DNA from: Campylobacterales bacterium
GTDB taxonomy: Bacteria; Campylobacterota; Campylobacteria; Campylobacterales; Nitratiruptoraceae
Assembly (NCBI GenBank): GCA_027082175.1
Contig: JALWIX010000059.1
Span: forward strand, 1 to 48,530
DNA length: 48,530 bases
Direction: 5' to 3'
A model generated the notes under the pieces. It was not told the origin of the DNA, ran no database searches, and saw only the letters and a list, made by a program, of their open reading frames with translations. A program made the position numbers and the translations under genes. The stretch's first letter is position 1; every line of letters begins with the position of its first letter. Of this stretch, positions 21,735-22,144 are shown piece after piece.

Positions 21735-21780
21735 AATTCTCCTTGTTTAAGTTTATAGAGTATTTCATAACTCCACGCTA

Positions 21781-22073
21781 ATTGAGTGTTCTGAATAAAT
21801 AGCAAATTTCGCTCAAGCAAGTTATCATTTTTGCATTTGGCAACGCTTGAAAATTTTATTAAAAAGTGCGAACGCAAGAAGCGTTAAGCCAGCGCAAACT
21901 GCTTTGCGTTGGTAGCTCCGCACGGCGAGGCGTTTATACAAACTTGCATAGCCTACGCCACAGGAGCGCCCTTCGGGGTTAAGCGCACTTTTTTGCTTTT
22001 ATGACCAACATAAAATTTTCAAGCTAAAATGATAAAGCTTTCGCTCAATTACTATTTATTCAGAGAGTTCAAT
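21781..22073. mobile_element. Candidate MITE: 293-bp imperfect palindrome flanked by TA, with G+C-rich structured core
   Basis: The gltX-psd gap is filled by one large inverted repeat. Perfect paired segments are 21790-21802 with 22052-22064 (TCTGAATAAATAG), 21822-21831 with 22026-22035 (TTATCATTTT), 21845-21859 with 22010-22024 (GCTTGAAAATTTTAT), and 21864-21870 with 21984-21990 (AAGTGCG). Both ends read ATTGA and are flanked by TA (21779-21780 and 22074-22075), as in elements moved by IS630/mariner-type transposases. The core (about 21864-21990) is much richer in G+C than its surroundings and has further hairpins, among them CCC-TTCG-GGG at 21969-21978. No ORF of note lies inside. It could instead be a structured RNA or leader. 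Confidence 0.6.
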
Positions 22074-22144
22074 TAACAAATAAGTTTTGGGATTTTATCC
22101 AATTTTTGGTATATTTATCCTAAAATTTTAAGGAGTGGCTTTTT

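Follow-up and report, generated by a model that had tools for sequence, protein, structure and literature searches.

A palindrome between gltX and psd in a Campylobacterales genome is very probably a 287-bp IS5-type MITE with a separately spreading structured module

The window, the whole 48,530-bp stretch of a Campylobacterales contig that was analysed, contains the divergent genes gltX and psd, and most of the 410 nt between them is occupied by an imperfect palindrome of about 290 bp. This palindrome is very probably a non-autonomous 287-bp IS5-type MITE which carries, at the apex of its hairpin, a structured module that spreads separately. The initial annotation had described a palindrome with a G+C-rich core, and both descriptions hold. 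The outer arms (21779-21805/22049-22075) are 81% complementary, and further inwards the segments 21845-21859/22010-22024 and 21822-21834/22023-22035 pair at 15/15 and 12/13 positions, respectively. Folded as RNA, the gap gives -133.4 kcal/mol as compared to -88.3 +/- 5.4 for shuffled sequences (z = -8.3, 0/100), and the element folded as DNA gives z = -7.9. The core (21876-21961) has a G+C content of 53%, as against 30% for the arms and 33% for the window as a whole. The element lies about 46 bp from gltX and about 70 bp from psd, in agreement with the distances given earlier. Its parts are as follows.

21784..22070, no strand: whole element, a module-carrying MITE of 287 bp with ends GA...TC (repeat family; ends set by empty sites in the sibling genome and by matching 4-bp flanks)
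21780..21783, no strand: left target-site duplication AATT (sibling empty sites, flank table)
22071..22074, no strand: right target-site duplication AATT (sibling empty sites, flank table)
21784..21805, + strand: left terminal inverted repeat GAGTGTTCTGAATAAATAGCAA (arm complementarity; other copies with the same ends)
22049..22070, - strand: right terminal inverted repeat (arm complementarity; flank table)
21784..21875, + strand: 5' arm of the host MITE, in which ACG at 21872-21874 precedes the module insertion point (alignment with core-less copies)
21962..22070, + strand: 3' arm of the host MITE, starting near the CCC-TTCG-GGG hairpin (found in 200-bp core-less copies)
21876..21961, + strand: type I structured module, G+C-rich (match to covariance model R1, covariation, stand-alone copies; missing from the short forms)
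21878..21919, + strand: module domain 1, P1 (21878-21882/21915-21919) around P2 (21889-21896/21905-21912) (covariation)
21897..21904, + strand: conserved P2 loop AACTGCTT (module alignment)
21924..21959, + strand: module domain 2, the long hairpin P3 (covariation)
22087..22115, + strand: promoter-like block of psd, beyond the element (also conserved by congeners whose site is empty)

Comparison of the locus among relatives showed that the element is an insertion. Throughout the bacterial family gltX and psd are adjacent and divergently oriented. In the closest relative, the congener G002, the gap is 412 bp and holds the element at the same place, and in 16 records of other relatives it measures 47-150 bp without the element. 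A native terminator or attenuator of gltX or psd would suit such a position between divergent genes, and a terminator scan of the gap did detect one weak terminator-like hairpin. However, the gap is present without the palindrome in all other relatives and the same sequence is found at dozens of unrelated loci, which makes this explanation highly improbable; a native origin is refuted by the absence in relatives. Neither gene requires this copy, since relatives do without it. It had also been stated that the palindrome must affect both promoters. The psd promoter-like block (about 22087-22120), which congeners with an empty site share, is situated downstream of the inserted element and left intact by it, and some 46 bp are kept ahead of gltX; it is therefore unsupported that both promoters must be affected. 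A secondary insulating effect of the palindrome on gltX and psd is possible.

The exact ends of the element follow from other copies. The joined flanks of these copies were searched against the congeners, and two of them, C1 and C101a, have clean empty sites in G002 (...CTAAATTTACAAG and ...TAAAATAATTAAAATT) with a single AATT, as compared to the filled arrangement AATT[GA...TC]AATT. In the flank table the 4-mers on the two sides are identical in most copies, usually AATT; the pairs AATA/AATA, TATT/TATT and, in copy C36a, AGTT/AGTT are found as well, and in several old copies the 4-bp flanks are no longer identical. The empty sites and flanking 4-mers together show that the element starts with GA, ends with TC and duplicates 4 bp. 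In the initial annotation the element had TA borders and was compared to elements moved by IS630/mariner-like transposases. The window palindrome is indeed literally flanked by T and A, but the empty sites have one AATT against two when filled, the bases outside AATT vary, AATA, TATT and AGTT occur as identical flanks besides AATT, and the element with matching ends (see below) is of the IS5 type. Thus the duplication is 4 bp long and not the TA of the IS630/Tc1-mariner group; the best ends are 21784-22070, derivation from an IS630/mariner element is extremely improbable, and the outer T and A beside the AATT duplication of the window copy are, judged from these comparisons, incidental.

With the element as query, the window genome gave 26 matches below E = 1e-4, and these fall into several size classes. 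Copies bordered by TA and empty sites in relatives had been named as support for a MITE; the copies and the empty sites were found, with AATT rather than TA as border. The MITE family has about 20 copies in the window genome and is abundant in two congeners, G001 and G002. The 16 copies of this genome that were examined all lie between genes, and with multiple copies, non-coding sequence, terminal inverted repeats and empty sites in relatives the proposal of a MITE is borne out. The alignment contains forms of about 60, 180, 200 and 287 bp. The form of about 60 bp consists of little beyond both ends, the one of about 200 bp has the apex CGCAAGCGCCC..TTCG..GGGG, and the 287-bp form corresponds to the 200-bp form plus the 86-nt core. 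In the window genome the 287-bp form is represented by the window copy, C74 (16756) and C72; a core-carrying form is also found in G002 and in G016, which belongs to a different genus. The TTCG-loop hairpin that had been placed in the core does exist (CCC-TTCG-GGG, 21969-21978); since copies without the core carry it too, it is assigned to the host MITE. For the core-carrying copy C74b, 95% identical to the window copy, the matching site in G002 lacks the insertion. Most simply, the MITE loaded with its core would have transposed after the split from G002, the alternative being loss from G002.

Among 31 copies of the MITE, 18 of the 62 predicted arm pairs are changed on both sides with pairing kept, for example GAATAAATAG/CTATTTATTC in place of GAAAAATTAC/GTAATTTTTC. 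Such paired changes keep the element foldable; they fit selection and arm-to-arm conversion alike and do not tell which of the two is at work. In two copies from G001 (L074, L081) the 3' arm contains a different insert, GTCCGAGCC...GGCGACAACCCCGCAGCAAAGCGAGGACAAAAT, which is short and rich in G+C; MITEs of this family therefore tolerate inserts of different kinds.

The candidate parent was searched among DUF772 and DDE_Tnp_1 transposases in 22 genomes of the family, with their surroundings scanned for the MITE end. At 1932432-1933608 of G002 there is a decayed IS5-family element of 1177 bp with the structure AATT|GAGTCCTCTAAAAAATTA...TTTTTCAGAGGATTC|AATT (right end also written as GGTTTTTCAGAGGATTC|AATT). 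The part of it that is readable has NCBIfam transpos_IS5_4 as its closest match (5e-17) and also matches Pfam DDE_Tnp_1 (3e-10). A second decayed relative in G002 has the end AATT|GAACCCTCTGAA. The similarity between MITE and IS ends spans about 15-18 terminal bases; the match on the left is reached by 0/2000 shuffles and that on the right by about 1% (P about 0.01, moderate alone). Beyond these two decayed elements no matching ends were found near such transposases in the family genomes, nor was an intact transposase with the ends of the MITE found in the 22 genomes. Because the 1177-bp element shares both the terminal repeats and the AATT flanks, and hence the duplication length, the MITE is classified as IS5-type, and it may well be mobilised in trans by an IS5-type transposase. 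What the two have in common is limited to the terminal bases, the window element being non-coding, unlike members of the IS5 family. The element had no match in a plasmid collection and the core pattern none among viral contigs. The host elements form a new MITE family whose candidate IS5-type parent and target site are defined, and they explain dozens of the palindromes that lie between genes here.

RUP of pneumococcus, the Correia elements of Neisseria and ERIC duplicate TA. Similar to these, the present elements are small, non-coding, intergenic, imperfectly palindromic and numerous, with terminal inverted repeats and target duplications, whereas their duplication is the 4-bp AATT and their ends are of the IS5 type. 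Another MITE with a further repeat inside is BrickBuilt of Porphyromonas gingivalis, which is reported to carry a minisatellite (PMC4596501); the insert described here is instead a single-copy, structure-conserved module that also exists alone. A literature search for MITEs and repeats in Nautilia, Nitratiruptor and Epsilonproteobacteria returned nothing relevant.

The core is the more interesting part, since it is covarying, uncatalogued and spreading both inside and outside the MITE. It matches sites in relatives that have no MITE arms, and an alignment of 15 module copies (116 columns) supports a fold in which P1 encloses P2 with the conserved loop, followed by the long P3. Over the alignment 95.5% of the cells pair and 11 of 25 pairs are changed on both sides, as in the switch of P1 from GGAGC/GCTCC to GAGCC/GGCTC. 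The count of two-sided cells is 43, against a shuffled mean of 13.9 and with 0/500 shuffles reaching it, and the covariation score is 0.362 versus 0.134 for shuffled alignments; slid controls collapse. The covariance analysis that had been put forward for the core thus shows pairing maintained by two-sided changes. Searches with covariance model R1 (E <= 0.01) recover the module from 12 of the 22 family genomes, with one match only in the window (95 bits, E 9e-24). By its distribution the module is an independent unit, confined within MITEs to the 287-bp form.

Apart from the MITE apex, the module occupies another repeat of G001, rRNA spacers and the terminal repeats of CRISPR arrays, and tandem or single copies occur elsewhere in G021 and G003. 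G014 and G020 harbor three copies each in the 16S-23S spacer after tRNA-Ala, the rRNA genes themselves being seen at one G014 copy. The spacer copies occupy the anticodon-loop position of a remnant that looks like the 3' half of tRNA-Ala (L152:700-900, L213, L224, L228). In G020 and G014 a type I module lies within the terminal repeat of a CRISPR array, and in G013 one adjoins the array (L234:1450-1600, L209:1461-1627, L207:1286-1520); G013 and G014 additionally have a type II repeat after a truncated CRISPR repeat. For the MITE, the repeat of G001 and the remnant similar to tRNA-Ala, ACG stands at the left junction and the uninterrupted sites read ACGCAAG, ACGCAAG and ACGCAGG, respectively. 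This suggests that the module prefers ACGCAR-like sites, in three contexts of which two share an 8-mer.

Similar to REP and REPIN sequences, the module is a short, structured, intergenic repeat with a G-rich head: stand-alone copies start with GGGAG or GGTAG, like REP heads, and form imperfect palindromes. The module could on these grounds be a REP/REPIN-like sequence moved by a Y1 (RAYT) transposase, but it has a larger two-domain fold with a conserved loop, and Y1_Tnp was found neither in genomes of genus g1 nor in the module-bearing G014, G016, G020 and G021, complete genomes included. The domain is present in G013, with one weak match in G005. With no Y1 transposase in most module-bearing genomes a resident RAYT mobiliser is largely refuted; an extinct one is conceivable. 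A REP-like origin is very improbable overall.

The core had also been read as an RNA carried by the element. That it is a separate, structure-conserved unit is confirmed, and an RNA role is possible. The covarying helices and the conserved loop resemble Rfam structured RNAs and would suit a functional non-coding RNA gene that was acquired by the MITE, is transcribed and acts in trans or regulates gltX or psd; larger related repeats (described below) have RNA-like properties as well. On the other hand, the mismatches in the module are 8 G.T and 8 A.C, and equal counts give no RNA-strand signature; the window-genome copies have gathered mispairs and the gltX-psd copy is missing in relatives. No family of Rfam 15 matches the module at the gathering threshold, the best match (Transposase-2 RNA, 17.8 bits against a gathering value of 42.7) being at chance level. 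An RNA gene of this kind is therefore conceivable, if rather doubtful.

The larger repeat has P1, P1a and P2 with the same loop AACTGCTT, a GCGAAAGC hairpin, a conserved internal loop and a long P3, followed by GGTTTACC. There are about 20 copies in G001 (L097-L115) and a few in the window genome (in C33, C38 and C32: L038:1440-1860, L036:1440-1800 and L040:1440-1650). In this repeat 23 of 37 pairs are changed on both sides and 17 of 24 copies lie immediately 3' of genes and in their orientation; it had no match in Rfam. From these features the larger repeat looks more RNA-like. Stand-alone module copies and the larger repeat have a common loop, layout and 3' GGTTACC-like end, and the module is for that reason read as a probable member of the same AACTGCTT-loop superfamily.

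The preferred explanation, a module-carrying IS5-type MITE, would involve the following steps. An IS5-family transposase would recognise the ends GAnnnYTCTGAAAAA... in trans, and the MITE would have inserted at AATT, with duplication of this target, in an ancestor shared by the window genome and G002. Its arms would be kept complementary by paired changes, so that folding into one long hairpin would always be possible. In a minority of copies the 86-nt module would have joined the 200-bp form at ACG^CAAG, the hairpin apex, after which MITE and module would transpose as one unit. The module presumably also spreads by a route of its own, and it may act as RNA or as single-stranded DNA. As a distinctly tentative extension, the core may be part of a superfamily not described so far, made up of structured AACUGCUU-loop elements of vent Campylobacterota that are mobile and protein-less. 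They would prefer hairpin-forming targets (the MITE apex, another repeat, the tRNA-Ala-like remnant in the rRNA spacer and the terminal repeats of CRISPR arrays), with ACG^CAR as the site in three cases, and would insert by an RNA- or ssDNA-guided mechanism supplied in trans. The label 'vent' is our reading of MAGs named 'Campylobacterales bacterium', one of which (JAMONM010000098.1) has exactly the gltX-psd gap of the congener G003. If expressed or self-moving, the AACTGCTT-loop superfamily would be a new kind of mobile element, small and structured, a question that is testable in culturable vent bacteria.

In the C38 record of the window genome a run of N separates two repeat copies (L036:1580-1685). 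Related hairpin elements are found between tRNA genes of a Leu-Gly cluster in G002 and G001 (L231:1500-1740, L113:1500-1530).
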